This document shows positions 13,694 to 40,829 of a stretch of 40,829 nt of DNA, one piece after another. The notes under the pieces were generated by a model, which was given only the letters and a program-made list of their open reading frames with translations, was not told where the DNA came from and did no database searches. Numbering within the stretch: the first letter of the stretch is position 1; every line of letters starts with the position of its first letter. The DNA is taken from contig LFSF01000031.1 of NCBI GenBank assembly GCA_001512665.1, forward strand, positions 50,918 to 91,746, read 5' to 3'. The stretch is from Clostridiales bacterium DTU073 (GTDB lineage: Bacteria; Bacillota; Peptococcia; DRI-13; DTU073). A program made the translations under genes and the position numbers.

Positions 13694-13844
13694 GTGGCAG
13701 GATGTGGTAAGGTGGCAGGGGGCGTTCAGGTGGCATGGGGACGTTTCATCTGCCACATTTTCAAATTTTAAGTTGTTTTAAAAAATGTGGCAGATGAAAC
13801 GTCCCCATGCCACCTGAACGCCGGAGAAACGTCGCTCCCTGCCA
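13694..13844. repeat. Nested GTGGCA/TGCCAC inverted-repeat element (copy A)
   Basis: The core is a perfect 41-bp inverted repeat: 13721-13761 and 13782-13822, with a 20-base AT-rich loop. The inner unit begins GTGGCATGGGGACGTTTC and ends with its complement. It sits inside an outer pair, GTGGCAGGG (left) and CCCTGCCA (right, 13837-13844). The outer arms' GTTCAG/CTGAAC tips flank the inner unit, as if one element had inserted into the loop of another. Two further partial starts (GTGGCAGG, GTGGTAAG) lie to the left. The arms and loop resemble copy D at 33599. Confidence 0.85.
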
Positions 13845-15412: not shown

Positions 15413-16561
15413 ATGAGGATTAACCACAACATCGCGGCGTTAAATACATATCGTCAATTGACGATTAATAACGCCAGTGGCTCCAAGGCGATTGAAAAAT
15501 TGTCTTCGGGCTTAAGGATCAACAGAGCTGGTGATGATGCGGCAGGTTTGGCGATCAGTGAAAAGATGAGAGGGCAGATCCGTGGGTTGGAGATGGCTTC
15601 CAAGAACGCGCAAGACGGTGTTTCCTTGATTCAGACGGCAGAAGGTGCCCTCAATGAAACACACAGTATTTTACAGAGAATGAGGGAACTGGCTGTGCAG
15701 GCAGCTAACGACACCAATGATGATACAGACCGTCAACAATTACAGGAAGAAGTCAATGCTTTAATTGATGAAATCGATCGAATCGCTAACGCTACGGAAT
15801 TCAACAACATGACCTTGCTTAATGGGGATTTGGCCATAAAACTAACGGGTAGTTTTACTAATGTATCGTATCTTGAACCTATCGAAATTGAGGACCTTGG
15901 CACTTTTACAGATGGTGCAACAGTTTCTGTAACGCAAGCAACAACTATTACTGAAGGTGCATTTGACAGTATAAAATTTACAGTACAGGTAGGCACAGAG
16001 ACAGCAAATATCACTTTTTCGAAAGATGATTTGACTAATGGCAAAATCACCGGAGAAGTAAAGATAGGTGAGGCTAAATTTGTATTGACTGTAAAGGATG
16101 CGACTGGTTTACTCGCCTTGACTTCAGCTCCTTCTGGTGAAGGCACAGATAATTTTACTATTGATGACAACTCCCTGATCTTCCATATTGGGGCTAATCA
16201 AGGCCAGAATCTGAAAATGGCCATTAATGATTTGACCGCCAAGGCTCTAAAGGTTGATTCAATAGACATTACTACTCAGGCTAATGCGGATGCTGCCATT
16301 GCTACAATCCAAGCTGCCATTGATGAAGTCTCCTTACAACGTTCCAAACTGGGTGCCGCCCAGAACCGTCTCGAACATACCATCGCTAACTTGGGTACAG
16401 CGGCGGAGAACTTGACGGCGGCAGAATCCCGGATTCGTGATGTGGATATGGCTAAAGAAATCATGGAATTCACCAAGACTGCTATTCTTACTCAGGCTGC
16501 TCAGGCTATGTTGGCTCAGGCCAACTTACAGCCCCAGGGAGTGTTACAGTTACTGCAATAA
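15413..16561 (+). CDS. hag: Flagellin (first of two tandem copies)
   Basis: A 382-residue flagellar filament subunit. The N-terminal D0/D1 domain (1-about 140) includes MRINHNIAALNTYRQLTINN, LSSGLRINRAGDDAAGLAIS and MRGQIRGLEMASKNAQDGVS. The C-terminal D1/D0 (about 300-382) includes SKLGAAQNRLEHTIANLGTA and the ending QAMLAQANLQPQGVLQLLQ. The roughly 160-residue middle is beta-rich, Thr/Ser-rich and unlike the second copy except in its scaffold. Expression should depend on sigma-D and on CsrA release by FliW. Confidence 0.97.
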   Translation: MRINHNIAALNTYRQLTINNASGSKAIEKLSSGLRINRAGDDAAGLAISEKMRGQIRGLEMASKNAQDGVSLIQTAEGALNETHSILQRMRELAVQAANDTNDDTDRQQLQEEVNALIDEIDRIANATEFNNMTLLNGDLAIKLTGSFTNVSYLEPIEIEDLGTFTDGATVSVTQATTITEGAFDSIKFTVQVGTETANITFSKDDLTNGKITGEVKIGEAKFVLTVKDATGLLALTSAPSGEGTDNFTIDDNSLIFHIGANQGQNLKMAINDLTAKALKVDSIDITTQANADAAIATIQAAIDEVSLQRSKLGAAQNRLEHTIANLGTAAENLTAAESRIRDVDMAKEIMEFTKTAILTQAAQAMLAQANLQPQGVLQLLQ

Positions 16562-16696: not shown

Positions 16697-17881
16697 ATGA
16701 GAATTAACCACAACATCGCGGCGTTAAACACGTATCGTCAGTTGACGATCAACAACGCTAATGGCTCTAAGGCCATTGAAAAATTGTCATCGGGCTTAAG
16801 AATTAACAGAGCCGGTGACGATGCGGCCGGCTTGGCCATCAGTGAAAAGATGAGAGGCCAGATCCGTGGGTTGGAAATGGCTTCGAAAAACGCGCAAGAT
16901 GGTGTTTCCTTGATTCAGACCGCAGAAGGTGCTCTTAATGAGACACATAGTATCCTGCAAAGGATGAGAGAACTGGCGGTGCAGGCAGCTAACGACACCA
17001 ATAATACCACGGACCGTCAACAATTACAGGAAGAAGTCAATGCTTTAATTGAGGAAATTGATCGAATTGGTAACGCAACGGAATTCAACAACATGAAATT
17101 ACTTAATGGGGAATCGGGGGCTAAAAAACTAACGGGTAGTATTGTAAATGCCGCGAATCTTCAATCTATTACACCTAAAGATTTGAGTACTTTCAATTTA
17201 GATAATGGTACTAACGTTAGTGTGAAGCAAGAAACAACTTTTACAAAAGATAGCGATGATAAATGGGATTTTACTAGCATAACTTTTACAGTAACTGTTG
17301 GTGCAACTAGTCAAGCAGTATCTTTTAGTGAATCAGATTTATCGAGTGGCACAACTACCAAAGACGTAGCGGTAGATGGTACTACATTTGAGGTGAGTGT
17401 AAAGGATGCGAGTGCTTTATTAGCACTGACTGATCAAGATTCGGATATTGGAGCAGAATCAGCCGCAGATACCTTCACTGTTACAAGTAGCTCCTTGACC
17501 TTCCATATTGGGGCTAATAATGCTCAGAATCTGAAAATGTCCATTAATGACATGAGAGCAGAAGCTTTAGGCGTTAATACGGTAGACATAACTACTCAGA
17601 CTGGTGCAGATGCTGCCATTACTACAATTCAAAACGCTATTGATACTGTCTCTACACAGCGTTCCAAGCTGGGTGCTGCGCAGAACCGTCTGGAGCACAC
17701 CATCGCTAACCTGGGTACGGCCGCTGAGAACCTGAGTGCGGCAGAATCCCGGATCCGTGATGTGGACATGGCCAAAGAGATTATGGAATTCACCAAGACT
17801 TCCATACTTACTCAGGCTGCTCAGGCGATGTTGGCTCAGGCTAACCAACAACCGCAAGGTGTGTTGCAGTTACTCCGGTAG
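16697..17881 (+). CDS. hag: Flagellin (second of two tandem copies)
   Basis: A 394-residue filament protein. Residues 1-135 and the last 90 are nearly identical to the first copy. The centre (about 140-300) has diverged, with different Asp/Thr/Ser-rich beta segments and a 12-residue longer total length. The DNA of the ends differs mainly at synonymous positions, with some longer identical blocks such as the stretch beginning GACCGTCAACAATTACAGGA in both. That pattern suggests purifying selection plus occasional gene conversion. A composite filament or alternative filament surface is plausible. Confidence 0.97.
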   Translation: MRINHNIAALNTYRQLTINNANGSKAIEKLSSGLRINRAGDDAAGLAISEKMRGQIRGLEMASKNAQDGVSLIQTAEGALNETHSILQRMRELAVQAANDTNNTTDRQQLQEEVNALIEEIDRIGNATEFNNMKLLNGESGAKKLTGSIVNAANLQSITPKDLSTFNLDNGTNVSVKQETTFTKDSDDKWDFTSITFTVTVGATSQAVSFSESDLSSGTTTKDVAVDGTTFEVSVKDASALLALTDQDSDIGAESAADTFTVTSSSLTFHIGANNAQNLKMSINDMRAEALGVNTVDITTQTGADAAITTIQNAIDTVSTQRSKLGAAQNRLEHTIANLGTAAENLSAAESRIRDVDMAKEIMEFTKTSILTQAAQAMLAQANQQPQGVLQLLR

Positions 17882-17901: not shown

Positions 17902-18051
17902 ATGTGGCAGGGGGACGTTTCACTTGCCACATTACAGGGGACTTTCTGCATAATAAGATGGGGGCATTCGGCTATATGCCGTGTGCCCTCATTTCTATGT
18001 GTGTCTCTAGACCTTTTGTAATGTGGCAAGTGAAACGTCCCCCTGCCACAT
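17902..18051. repeat. GTGGCA/TGCCAC inverted-repeat element (copy B)
   Basis: Perfect 35-bp inverted repeats, 17902-17936 and 18017-18051, flank an 80-base interior. The interior contains its own hairpin (ATGGGGGCA...TGCCCTCAT enclosing GGC/GCC). The arms share GTGGCAGGGGGACGTTTC with the other copies. It begins 20 bp after the second flagellin stop codon. The 354-bp gap 17882-18235 contains this element, a sigma-D-like promoter and no gene. Confidence 0.85.
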
Positions 18052-24197: not shown

Positions 24198-24536
24198 GTG
24201 GCAGGGGAACGTTGTGGCAGGGCGACGGTTGTGGCAGGGGGACGTTTCGTCTGCCACATTTTAGTAGTTGGGTCACGTTTTAGCCAAATGTAACCTCCAG
24301 ACTCCGTATGACTGAAAGGAATCGAGCTCACTCATCCTTGGGTTCGGGCTATGCATGACTATGTGGGGCTCCCCATCCCCACTTTGGGTAGCTGCCCTCA
24401 CCGCTGCGTCTTCCCTCGCTCTTTTGAATAATGGTCATAAAGTCGTTCTGGAGGTAACATTTTGCAGGAACGTTTCTCTTATAAATTTAGAGTGGATTTT
24501 TGTTAGAATGTGGCAAAGGAAACGTCCCCCTGCCAC
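24198..24536. repeat. GTGGCA/TGCCAC inverted-repeat element with large interior (copy C)
   Basis: Left arm GTGGCAGGGGGACGTTTC onward (24231-24260) and right arm ending 24536 match at 28 of 30 positions as inverted repeats. Two truncated left-arm copies precede the full one, at 24198 and 24214, giving a tandem array with 16- and 17-base periods. The interior of about 245 bp contains a second, different inverted repeat. The gene-free gap 24191-24682 (492 bp) is made up of this element and the csp promoter region. Confidence 0.8.
24286..24462. repeat. Second inverted-repeat element nested inside copy C
   Basis: AAATGTAACCTCCAGA (24286-24301) and TCTGGAGGTAACATTT (24447-24462) are inverted repeats matching 15 of 16. 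Just inside, TATGAC and GTCATA (about 24307 and 24433) extend the symmetry. The roughly 145-base interior is GC-richer than its surroundings and contains GTGGGG...CCCCAC. No convincing ORF. It looks like another non-autonomous mobile element or a structured RNA. Confidence 0.5.
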
Positions 24537-24600
24537 GATGCCCCCCTCGTCACATAAATCTGGATATTATAAAACATTTGTTTATATAGCTTGCTTTTGT

Positions 24601-33598: not shown

Positions 33599-33699
33599 GT
33601 GGCATGGGGACGTTTCTCCTGCCACATTCTCAAATTCTAAGTTTGTTTCATAAAAATGTGGCAGGAGAAACGTCCCCATGCCACGTCCCCCTGCCACAT
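33599..33699. repeat. GTGGCA/TGCCAC inverted-repeat element (copy D)
   Basis: A perfect 30-bp inverted repeat (33599-33628 and 33655-33684) around a 26-base AT-rich loop. The arm sequence and loop (TCAAATT-TAAGTT) closely match the inner unit of copy A 20 kb away, so the two are recent relatives. An extra right half-arm (GTCCCCCTGCCACAT, 33685-33699) follows, again suggesting insertion next to or inside a pre-existing copy. Confidence 0.85.
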
Positions 33700-36878: not shown

Positions 36879-38021
36879 TTGTTTGTAAAAAATAAAACCC
36901 TAAGAAATATATTTATTGTTTTAACCATTTTCAGCTTTTTGATTACAGGAATGGTGGGGATATTATTTGCAACAAATTATCAAAATATCGGTAAATTATT
37001 GCAGGTAATGGCAATCATTAAAACTCAATACCTAGAGGATGTTCCTATAAAGCAGCTTATGGCAGGTGCTGTCCGCGGTATGGTAGATTCCTTGAATGAC
37101 CCTTATTCGGTATATATGGATCAAGAAGAATTTCAGGAATTTCGTCAGCACATTGAAGGTTCTATCGGAGGGATCGGTATATTTGTTAGTGTTCAGGAGG
37201 ATAAATTTGTCGTGTACTCGGTAATCGAGGGTACTCCAGCCAGTAGAGCCGGGCTGAAAAAAGGAGATATCATTTATAAGGTAAATAATGTCTTAGCGAG
37301 TGAAATGGATGTTGATGAAACAGTAGCGAAAATGCGCGGAGAGCCCGGGACAACGGTGAAGGTAAGTGTAGTTAGAGAAGGTAGTATTAAAGATTTTACG
37401 GTAGTTCGGGATGTAATTGATATTCCCACCGTGGAAAGCGAAGTACTTTCGGATAAAATTGGTTATCTGCGACTTAATCTTTTCGCCAGTAATTCTGATG
37501 AAGCTTTAGTGGAACACCTGGACAAATTAAAGCAGGAAAAAATAGAAGGACTGATTCTGGATTTGCGGGATAACCCGGGAGGCGACTTGGAATCAGCAAT
37601 CAATATCTCACGATTTTTTTTACCTGAGGGTCCGGTAGTTTATATTGTGGATAATAAAGGACGCATGAAAAGTATGGATAATAATCAGCCAGAAGAATTA
37701 GGGATTCCTTTAGTTGTGTTAATTAACGAGGGAAGTGCCAGTGCCTCTGAAGTTTTGGCCGGAGCAATTAAAGATACTAATTCGGGAATTTTGATTGGAG
37801 AAAAAACTTATGGTAAAGCTTTAGTGCAGGTGCTTATTCAGATGAGAGGCAAAGATGCTTTGAAATTGACTACTGCAAAATATTTAACCCCGAATAAAAA
37901 TGATATTCAGGCGAAAGGAATAGAACCGGACATTAAAGTAAGTCTTACAGCGGAAGATAAAGAGGATACACAATTAAAGAAAGCCTTGGACGTTTTAGAG
38001 AAACAACTCAGGTCGCAATGA
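36879..38021 (+). CDS. ctpA: S41 C-terminal processing peptidase (CtpA/CtpB type)
   Basis: 380 residues, TTG start after AGAGGTG. An N-terminal membrane helix anchors it outside the cell. A PDZ domain (about 95-180: GGIGIFVSVQEDKFVVYSVIEG, SRAGLKKGDIIYKVNN) precedes the S41 protease core with LDLRDNPGGDLESAINIS. The catalytic Ser lies in NEGSASASEVLAGAIKD and Lys in GEKTYGKALVQ. B. subtilis CtpB sits in the same place after ftsX and cleaves regulators during sporulation. The substrate here is unknown. Confidence 0.95.
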   Translation: MFVKNKTLRNIFIVLTIFSFLITGMVGILFATNYQNIGKLLQVMAIIKTQYLEDVPIKQLMAGAVRGMVDSLNDPYSVYMDQEEFQEFRQHIEGSIGGIGIFVSVQEDKFVVYSVIEGTPASRAGLKKGDIIYKVNNVLASEMDVDETVAKMRGEPGTTVKVSVVREGSIKDFTVVRDVIDIPTVESEVLSDKIGYLRLNLFASNSDEALVEHLDKLKQEKIEGLILDLRDNPGGDLESAINISRFFLPEGPVVYIVDNKGRMKSMDNNQPEELGIPLVVLINEGSASASEVLAGAIKDTNSGILIGEKTYGKALVQVLIQMRGKDALKLTTAKYLTPNKNDIQAKGIEPDIKVSLTAEDKEDTQLKKALDVLEKQLRSQ

Positions 38022-38066
38022 TTAAGCTGTTTAATATTAATACTCATTTTGGGGGAGAAGGAGAAA

Positions 38067-39329
38067 ATGTTTCCGATCTCAGAGTTTTTACCTTTGGTCT
38101 TAAAAAGTTTTTTATCTGCTTTTGGAAATATTATTTTTTGGATTCCCTTTTTTATTGTAGCGTTATTATATAAAAAAATGACAAAAGCGACCCGTTATTT
38201 ATTCGCGACGCCGGGGGAATCCCCCTGGCGTCTTACGCTTATGACGAGCTTTTTTGGTATTGTAGGTGGTTTTTTTGGTAGTTGCTTATTAATTTTTATA
38301 GGTATTTCAGTTCACGAAATCGGAGGATTTTATTTACTTTTTACAGCGTTGCTTCTTATGCTTATTCAGCAGCGTTTTTTGTGTTTTGCTTATGCCGGCG
38401 GAGTTCTTTCTTTATGTTACTTGCTTTTTGGTTTTCCGATAATTAGTGTGCCTCACGTGATGGCTTTAGTTGCTGTATTGCACTTATTGGAGGCTCTGCT
38501 TATTTATTTAACGGGAAGTATTTATGCTCTCCCTATCTATGTGGCCACGAAAGAAGGTAGAGTTGTCGGCGGTTATAATTTGCAAAAGTTTTGGCCGATG
38601 CCCTTGGTGTTACTTTTCGCCGGTGTTTATCCGGATCCACAAATTATCAAAGGTGTTGTAAGTATGCCTGATTGGTGGCCGCTGCTTAAACCGGGGCTCT
38701 CTGCTCTGGAAGGGGAGATCGTTTATAGTCTTATAGCTATACCTGCTATTTTGGGTTATGGGGATATTGCTCTTTCTGCAACTCCTCGTGAAAAGACCCG
38801 TATTGCTGCATGGGAGCTTGCCGGTTATAGCGTGCTTTTACTCTTTTTAGCAATAGGGGCCGGTTATTATCCTTTTTTGGCTTATCCGGCAGCGCTTTTT
38901 GGTCCATTAGGACACGAGTTTGTTATTTATTTGGGACAGAAGCGTGAAGCGTGTAGAGAACCGATCTTTGTCCTATCGGCAAATGGAGTAAAGTTGCTTT
39001 ATGTGCAGAGAAAGAGTCCTTTAGCTAAAGTTGGCGTTAAGGCGGGAGATATTCTTTTGACGATAAATGGGGTAGCGGTTCATGAGAATAATGAAATAAA
39101 AGCAATAATGGAGGGGCTTCCGGAGGGGCTGAGGAAGGTAGAGTTGGAATATCTTGCGGTTGCTACGGGAAAGCAGCATAAGGTTTTGGTGGAGTTAGAT
39201 GATGTAGTGAATTCCCGTGGCTATATTCCGGTACCCAGTTGGCATACCAGTGCCTATCTGCAGGTTGCCACTTCAGTCAGTTTGCTCAAAAAATGGTGGA
39301 GAAAATTGCGTCAAAAATTGAAAAAGTAG
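38067..39329 (+). CDS. MinJ-like polytopic membrane protein with PDZ domain
   Basis: About 420 residues from ATG 38067, 5 bases after GGAGAAGGAG; a TTG at 38049 is inside that site. About seven to eight hydrophobic helices (residues 10-290) are followed by a cytoplasmic or peripheral PDZ domain (about 305-385: VQRKSPLAKVGVKAGDILLTINGVAVHENNEI) and a basic tail. Architecture and position after ftsEX-ctp match B. subtilis MinJ, which bridges DivIVA and MinD at the division site. Sequence identity to MinJ cannot be judged here, so the assignment rests on layout. Confidence 0.78.
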   Translation: MFPISEFLPLVLKSFLSAFGNIIFWIPFFIVALLYKKMTKATRYLFATPGESPWRLTLMTSFFGIVGGFFGSCLLIFIGISVHEIGGFYLLFTALLLMLIQQRFLCFAYAGGVLSLCYLLFGFPIISVPHVMALVAVLHLLEALLIYLTGSIYALPIYVATKEGRVVGGYNLQKFWPMPLVLLFAGVYPDPQIIKGVVSMPDWWPLLKPGLSALEGEIVYSLIAIPAILGYGDIALSATPREKTRIAAWELAGYSVLLLFLAIGAGYYPFLAYPAALFGPLGHEFVIYLGQKREACREPIFVLSANGVKLLYVQRKSPLAKVGVKAGDILLTINGVAVHENNEIKAIMEGLPEGLRKVELEYLAVATGKQHKVLVELDDVVNSRGYIPVPSWHTSAYLQVATSVSLLKKWWRKLRQKLKK

Positions 39330-39340
39330 AATAATTAGGT

Positions 39341-39369
39341 TTTACATTTATTGGTTATTGTGGTAAAAT
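39341..39369 (+). promoter_or_regulatory. Sigma-A promoter of the unknown paralogue cluster
   Basis: TTTACA (39341-39346), exactly 17 bases, TAAAAT (39364-39369). Each box has one mismatch. It shows that the cluster starting at 39422 is a transcription unit separate from the minJ-like gene. Confidence 0.7.
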
Positions 39370-39421
39370 ATTATTTATTCTTTGTAAACTTTACATAATT
39401 GTATTTAGGGGGAAGTTGGTA

Positions 39422-39601
39422 ATGATAAAGAAGAATGCTTTAGTACAAAAATTTAAAGAGTGGTTAAATAAGCAATTACCGACCTTAAAAGAACAAGAAG
39501 TATTATTTAAAAATGTTTTCAGTTTGGTGGAAAAGAAGGAAACGGACAAATTTGTTAAGAAAGCACTTCACGTGGTTTGGGGGAAAGATCATGAGAAATA
39601 G
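39422..39601 (+). CDS. Small protein, first member of unknown paralogous family
   Basis: 59 residues from ATG 39422, 9 bases after AGGGGG. I do not recognise it. It is basic, helical and without a signal or membrane segment. Its core EVLFKNVFSLVEKKETDKFV aligns with the N-terminal RLFKDLFKIVVAYE of the gene at 40335 and with RQLFRGLYKIVKV of the gene at 39591. So it resembles a free-standing N-terminal module of the larger proteins. It overlaps the next gene by 11 bases, implying coupled translation and balanced amounts. Confidence 0.7.
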   Translation: MIKKNALVQKFKEWLNKQLPTLKEQEVLFKNVFSLVEKKETDKFVKKALHVVWGKDHEK

Positions 39602-40304
39602 ACAATTATTTCGGGGTTTATATAAAATCGTAAAAGTTAATGTAAGTGATCCAAATATGCAAGAAATAATGAACGATAAAGTGAATGATTTAGTTAAGGG
39701 TACCTCTACGCAAAATCCAACGGTTAAAGCAAAGTTGTTAGCGAAATATGGAGTTAAGGATTTAGATGAAGCAATGGTAAAAATAGTTGGAGAAATAAAT
39801 TATCTTTATAATCCGTACAGTACACCTGAAGAAAAGTGGATTGATTTACAGGCAAATTATTTAGAATATAGTTTTAACAATTGTAAGGTGAGAGAAATAT
39901 TAAATACTATGGAGAAAATCTCTAGATTTGAAGGTTTTAATACAGAGAAATTATGTCATCTTGATGATAAATTGCTAAAAAAACAACAGCAACTTGGTGA
40001 AGCTGTGGACAAGTATAGAATAGATGTGTTTAATCTGGGTCATAAAGTTTTTAATGTAGGTCAGAGAGAAAGGCTGCAAACGAATTTTGAGGAAAGATGG
40101 CATCATCTTAAAGGTTTATTAGATGATAAACAAAAAGAATTAGAAAAAATTGAGGAATTATTGTGTCGGATAAATGAAGTTGATCGTGAGATCAGATTCC
40201 GTAAGGGCATGGCTTTAAGGCTAAATTTTAGGGAGCAAAAGGAATTTGAAAAGAGTAGAAAAGGTAGTTGGCGGAGTCTTGATTATAGGCAAGACAGATT
40301 TTAA
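39591..40304 (+). CDS. Unknown protein, second member of paralogous family
   Basis: About 237 residues from ATG 39591, after GGGGGAAAG; the same frame is open upstream to 39513 but without a ribosome-binding site. No family recognised. It has an N-terminal LFRGLYKIV motif (6-14). A helical core carries KAKLLAKYGVKDLDEAM and INYLYNPYSTPEEKWIDLQA (70-89). A long charged coiled coil (about 105-205) and a very basic tail follow. No membrane segment or signal, so probably cytoplasmic; the basic C-terminus could bind nucleic acid or the membrane. The core aligns without gaps to the gene at 40335. Confidence 0.75.
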   Translation: MRNRQLFRGLYKIVKVNVSDPNMQEIMNDKVNDLVKGTSTQNPTVKAKLLAKYGVKDLDEAMVKIVGEINYLYNPYSTPEEKWIDLQANYLEYSFNNCKVREILNTMEKISRFEGFNTEKLCHLDDKLLKKQQQLGEAVDKYRIDVFNLGHKVFNVGQRERLQTNFEERWHHLKGLLDDKQKELEKIEELLCRINEVDREIRFRKGMALRLNFREQKEFEKSRKGSWRSLDYRQDRF

Positions 40305-40334
40305 TTATTCGATTTATTATGGAGGGGAGCAGTA

Positions 40335-40829
40335 GTGAGGTTGTTAAGAAGCAAGTTAGAGCATATAAAAACATATCTGCAGGTAAGCAGAGGCAATAAC
40401 CGATTATTTAAAGACCTTTTTAAAATTGTGGTTGCTTATGAAGCTAATCAACAAAAACAGGAGGAGCTAATCAGGGAAATAAAAGATTTAATGAAATTAG
40501 TGCAATTGGATTCTATAGAAAAGTTAGAACCGTCCTCAAATAATGCGCAAATAAGAGCACATTTATTAAAAAAATATAATGCCAAAAATGCCGGTGAAGC
40601 CTTAGCAAAAGTTATCCCTTTTATTAATAATCAATATAATCCCTGTATAACTCCGGGTGAAATGCAGCTTGATTTGCAATCTTGTTTTTTAGCGTATTGT
40701 CATAATAATCAAAACGTTATAGAGAAGTTGCGTTCTTTGGAAGCAAACTCAAAGATTCAAGGTCATGAAACACAGCATATAGAACAACTTTATGAGAGAT
40801 TGCATAAGGAAGAAATTGAGTTGAGGGAG
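40335..40829 (+). CDS. Unknown protein, third member of paralogous family (partial)
   Basis: GTG 40335 lies 7 bases after GGAGGGG. The frame is open for 165 codons to the window end, so the C-terminus is missing. N-terminal residues 1-57 contain NNRLFKDLFKIVVAYE. Then come HLLKKYNAKNAGEALAKVIP (77-96) and INNQYNPCITPGEMQLDLQS (97-116). These match the preceding protein's LLAKY, YNP, TPEE and DLQ positions in register. A charged coiled coil begins near 125. The gene starts 30 bp after the second member, so the three look like one operon that continues beyond the window. Confidence 0.72.
   Translation, partial: MRLLRSKLEHIKTYLQVSRGNNRLFKDLFKIVVAYEANQQKQEELIREIKDLMKLVQLDSIEKLEPSSNNAQIRAHLLKKYNAKNAGEALAKVIPFINNQYNPCITPGEMQLDLQSCFLAYCHNNQNVIEKLRSLEANSKIQGHETQHIEQLYERLHKEEIELRE

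Follow-up and report, generated by a model that had tools for sequence, protein, structure and literature searches.

The DNA analyzed here, a window of 40,829 nucleotides from contig LFSF01000031.1 of Clostridiales bacterium DTU073, ends in three consecutive genes that follow a conserved set of division genes. The locus raises the question of what these genes encode, how far their relatives extend and whether their position points to a function.

Three genes at the end of the window

The three open reading frames that had been described at the end of the window are real. The first two overlap by 11 bases and the third starts after a 30-base gap (Table 1). The products of the two large genes share 34% identity over 145 columns, with one 10-residue gap followed by a gap-free alignment of the last 95 residues. 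The elements LLxKY, INxxYNP, TPxE and DLQ are all present in this alignment, as the earlier note had reported. Both products match the family HMM, the 237-aa protein as part of the profile and the product of the third gene as a sequence left out of it. Judged from their alignment, the two genes are paralogs and both are members of the family. An LFK motif proposed to define a three-gene family did not hold up, since the second gene has LFR and the wider family does not keep the motif.

The 59-aa ORF had been read as a member made up of the N-terminal module alone. It showed no meaningful BLAST match to either large window gene and had no relative in any other genome carrying the family. Its score with the family HMM was 9.7 bits, which ranked third among the ORF itself and 1000 shuffles, and the match was in the correct N-terminal register. 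The ORF may be a truncated copy of the family; register and rank give weak support to an N-terminal fragment. A frameshift origin of this ORF and the 237-aa gene was ruled out, because an LF[KR] stretch occurs in both and a partial copy fits better. Of the sigma-A promoter that had been assigned to the genes the motif itself was found, but promoter-like sites are just slightly more frequent than chance would give (13 versus 8.1 expected in shuffles), and the putative promoter is only suggestive.

The window ends inside the third gene because of an 80-N assembly gap (L003 3749-3828), after which the gene resumes and encodes the C-terminus ...DYLSAR. It is followed by a strong hairpin terminator, uvrB and uvrA, in that order, and therefore the further members that might have been expected past position 40829 do not occur at this locus. 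The terminator (L003 3985-4072) has a AAAACGCTC...GAGCGTTTT stem and resembles terminators at the same place in genomes G006 and G002. Its loop contains a long inner hairpin, TGTATTGTCCCC...GGGGGGCAGTACA, which is present as a single copy in the genome and looks like two abutting insertion-sequence ends.

Table 1. Positions of features in the window and arrangement of family genes (in brackets) in the carrier genomes
Feature	Position	Strand	Evidence or arrangement
CtpB-like S41 protease with PDZ domain (context)	36879..38021	+	
Membrane protein with C-terminal PDZ domain (non-family context)	38049..39329	+	Pfam PDZ_6; synteny
Putative sigma-A promoter	39341..39369	+	TTTACA-17-TAAAAT, TG before second hexamer; 10/12 matches
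59-aa ORF, possibly truncated N-terminal family copy	39422..39601	+	ORF; weak HMM score
237-aa family member, predicted all-helical	39591..40304	+	BLASTP E 4e-23 to next gene; HMM 185 bits
Third gene, family member, at least 165 aa in window	40335..40829 (open)	+	HMM 107 bits
Palindromic repeat	window about 13712-13814, 17904-18049, 24213-24561, 33599-33699; L037 6009-6066, 7200-7257		
Slot in G000			PDZ-[59 aa]-[237]-[third]-uvrB
Slot in G006			PDZ-[a][b]-uvrB-[c][d]-uvrA
Slot in G005			PcsB-[a][b]-ctpB-PDZ-[c][d][e]-uvrB
G002			[x]-uvrB, contig end

Distribution, placement and evolution of the family

Searches of 100 relatives with single proteins gave extra copies in the genome of origin and in three others of its taxonomic family, which was sampled by seven genomes. 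A profile of 18 sequences detected five copies in the genome of origin (G000), eight in G005, four in G006 and one in G002. A looser pass of the profile added a ninth G005 copy, C34, as well as a fragment of the C6 copy that is read in another frame, and a tail profile found a further G005 copy (C74) at a contig edge, bringing the G005 total to 9-10. Copy numbers are lower bounds because the carrier assemblies are fragmented. The C6 copy (L035 7770-8602, minus strand), with its N-terminal part in another frame, is by its reading frames either a pseudogene or a sequencing error.

With the 18-sequence profile no family copy was found in the remainder of the class, represented by 46 genomes, or in a 398-genome spread of the phylum. 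Viral contigs, phages and plasmids yielded no member, and a search of a genome-contig collection returned two contigs, both from carriers already found. A weak match in G007 (E 0.005, calculated per genome like all genome-search E-values) fell within a cluster of flagellar genes and was attributed to chance. The literature gave nothing on the carrier genomes or on the PDZ-uvrB locus. The carriers grouped together in a UvrB tree, apart from G004 (G003 was not placed), and in a CtpB plus PDZ tree calculated without G002, apart from G001 and G004.

The gene order ftsE-ftsX-PcsB-like hydrolase-ctpB-PDZ protein-uvrB-uvrA recurs in relatives, some contigs ending early. Synteny identifies the PDZ gene as the conserved left border of a variable slot. 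The PDZ gene directly adjoins uvrB in G009 and G001, while the slot contains a HEPN/nucleotidyltransferase pair in G004 (L078 2162-2879) and hydrogenase genes in G007. This slot between the conserved division genes and uvrBA is the commonest site of the family (Table 1), and the remaining copies are scattered among unrelated genes.

Well-supported pairs in the protein tree joined members of different genomes, namely C31/G005_a (100/100), C6/G006_d (98/94), G006_b/G005_e (97/97) and G006_c/G002 (96/96), whereas the two window genes were paired with each other (91/72), beside G005_c. In some of these pairs, for example C31/G005_a and C6/G006_d, the partners occupy different places. The supported cross-genome pairs, some of them at different places, imply that duplication predates the split of the genomes and that moves or losses occurred later. 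Copy C31 is flanked on both sides by a dispersed palindromic repeat in direct orientation. This REP-like repeat, GTGGCAGGGGGACGTTTCATTTGCCACATT..., has 88 matching stretches in the genome and also occurs in the window. Elsewhere in the window are tandem flagellin genes (15413-16561 and 16697-17881) with a divergent middle and nearly identical ends.

The family evolves faster than its surroundings. In the three closest cross-genome pairs, one of which contains the C6 copy with its N-terminal part now in another frame, dN/dS was 0.27-0.32, with synonymous changes near saturation in some pairs. The neighboring genes gave 0.06-0.08 (uvrB) and 0.10 (PDZ gene). The same family pairs were 51-60% identical compared to 87-91% for UvrB, and the family bodies evolve 3-5 times faster than neighboring genes. 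These values show that the members are maintained protein genes under purifying selection, with a constraint that is weaker or more variable than that on their neighbors.

Predicted fold and conserved ends

Single-chain AlphaFold models were calculated from an 18-row alignment. The 237-aa protein gave a mean pLDDT of 89.8 and a pTM of 0.80, and a typical 283-aa member 89.3 and 0.81. Both models are all-helical; the 237-aa protein has a last helix of great length, and the final residues are disordered in the 283-aa member. The best conserved stretch (IN..YN, then T...KW..L) maps to a helix-loop-helix corner in the models, a position more suggestive of a structural cap than of an active site. 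The members have no membrane segment, as had been stated before, the best 19-residue Kyte-Doolittle window being at most 1.05 in all of them. No signal, membrane or surface feature was seen that would support the surface-linked complex proposed in the earlier note.

Pfam, NCBIfam, PHROGs and PADLOC searches with each window gene and the 18 members gave only single-member matches at chance level, those to the PADLOC anti-phage defense profiles lying near E 0.009. Domain support for the defense or toxin-like array that had been considered is thus absent. A PDB profile search gave nothing below E 0.15, and Foldseek with the two good models found no significant match in the PDB (best E 0.13 and 0.19) or among viral structures (best E 0.034). 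These searches, together with Pfam, revealed no sequence or fold similarity to PspA/ESCRT-III or BAR-like scaffolds. The proposal of an unrecognised paralogous family, helical and with clearly similar large genes, was borne out for a family wider than first thought. The data show an undescribed, multi-copy family of soluble proteins, predicted to be all-helical and, in the genomes searched, restricted to one small clade of uncultured Clostridia, which has been duplicated, relocated and partly decayed.

In about half of the members the last helix closes with SAQxLRxE or a close variant, after which comes a variable linker. No clear form is present in C49, G005_b, C100 and both window genes; SAQxLRxE marks a subset and did not serve to define the family. 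The terminal residue is Arg in 13 of 20 members; when the last three residues are considered, 19 of 20 contain an Arg, including the window genes, which end in DRF and SAR. The G002 member ends in GNK. Among 173 other long ORFs of carrier and related genomes the frequencies are 9% for the last residue and 21% for the last three. The corresponding binomial P values of 1e-9 and 2e-12 are overstated because the copies are related, and the pattern was spotted after the sequences had been seen. The tail Arg is encoded by five different Arg codons, an indication that the protein and not the DNA is under selection. A tail-only profile returned family members and chance-level matches, but no unrelated protein with the same tail. 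At the other end, many members start with M-G/S, then bulky hydrophobic residues and K-K. Several members do not have this pattern, among them the 237-aa window protein, which is without the N-terminal leader of typical members.

Possible functions of the family

We tentatively propose, at clearly less than an even chance, that the members are cytoplasmic helical scaffolds or adaptors with divergent bodies, the tails of which would dock to a common partner. The fast-evolving helical body would bind member-specific targets, whereas the conserved tail, comprising the SAQxLRxE helix end, a disordered linker and an Arg at or near the end, would connect the members to one partner. In many members the amphipathic N-terminal stretch may touch the membrane. 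This docking proposal is based on the paralogy of the window pair and the occurrence of the family in four related genomes, with as many as about ten copies in one genome, on the confident helical models with a disordered tail, on the dN/dS and identity values, and on the SAQxLRxE element, the Arg enrichment with its five codons and the N-terminal pattern with its hydrophobic moments. The members without a clear SAQxLRxE, the GNK end in G002, the tail profile that finds only the family, the overstated tail statistics and the members without the N-terminal pattern count against it. A quite improbable extension is that a cell would contain up to ten interchangeable, fast-evolving helical proteins with a C-terminal tag read by one receptor, for which an export, protease-adaptor or compartment-docking machine would be a candidate.

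The position of the genes suggests an alternative, which we consider unlikely, in which the slot copies are accessory envelope or division proteins that are expressed with, and modulate, FtsEX, the PcsB-like hydrolase, CtpB and the PDZ protein, for example by binding of the family C-terminus to a PDZ domain. Copies indeed lie beside the division genes, mostly on the same strand, in G000, G005 and G006, the carriers with contigs that reach there, and in G005 two copies separate the PcsB-like gene from ctpB. However, the division genes are also present in sister genomes that lack the family or whose slot holds unrelated genes, other copies are far from division genes, and several copies likely have their own promoters and terminators. 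The usual PDZ ligand is a hydrophobic C-terminus, which makes a C-terminal Arg atypical.

The slot could also be an insertion site for a mobile, conflict-type family (defense, toxin-antitoxin-like or selfish genes), to which we likewise assign a small chance. The varying number of copies, the differing locations of well-supported orthologs, the partial copies and the fast evolution would fit such a family, as would the HEPN/nucleotidyltransferase pair in the same slot of G004 and the direct repeats around C31. On the other hand, no PADLOC, Pfam or phage-family match is common to more than one member, viral contigs, phages and plasmids contain none, no transposase regularly adjoins the copies, and the family is confined to one clade and under purifying selection. 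That the proteins are a known helical scaffold family, such as PspA-like or BAR-like, diverged past sequence detection is the least probable alternative: the predicted all-helical fold with long helices would agree with it, and the N-terminal MGFW..FKK of some members presumably resembles PspA-type amphipathic helices, a lead only, but neither the PDB profile nor the Foldseek searches reached significance and no Pfam family is common to two members.

If the tail of the proposed adaptors is a real docking tag, a small Clostridia genome would encode one receptor for many fast-evolving clients. Even without such a tag, the family is a clear case of orphan genes that were expanded and redistributed around a conserved division and repair locus in one clade. 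Like other taxonomically restricted paralogous families it has no detectable relatives outside its clade, includes divergent and partial copies and evolves fast; it differs from them in the unusually high copy number for genomes of 1.3-1.7 Mb and in the conserved C-terminal signature. As in other variable slots beside a conserved operon, the borders (the PDZ gene and uvrB) are kept while the contents change among relatives, but the slot of the carriers is repeatedly filled by one family that is also found far away. With coiled-coil membrane scaffolds of the PspA/Vipp1 type the proteins would share an all-helical structure, the lack of a membrane segment and possibly an N-terminal amphipathic helix, whereas they match these scaffolds in neither sequence nor fold and end in a conserved tail of their own.
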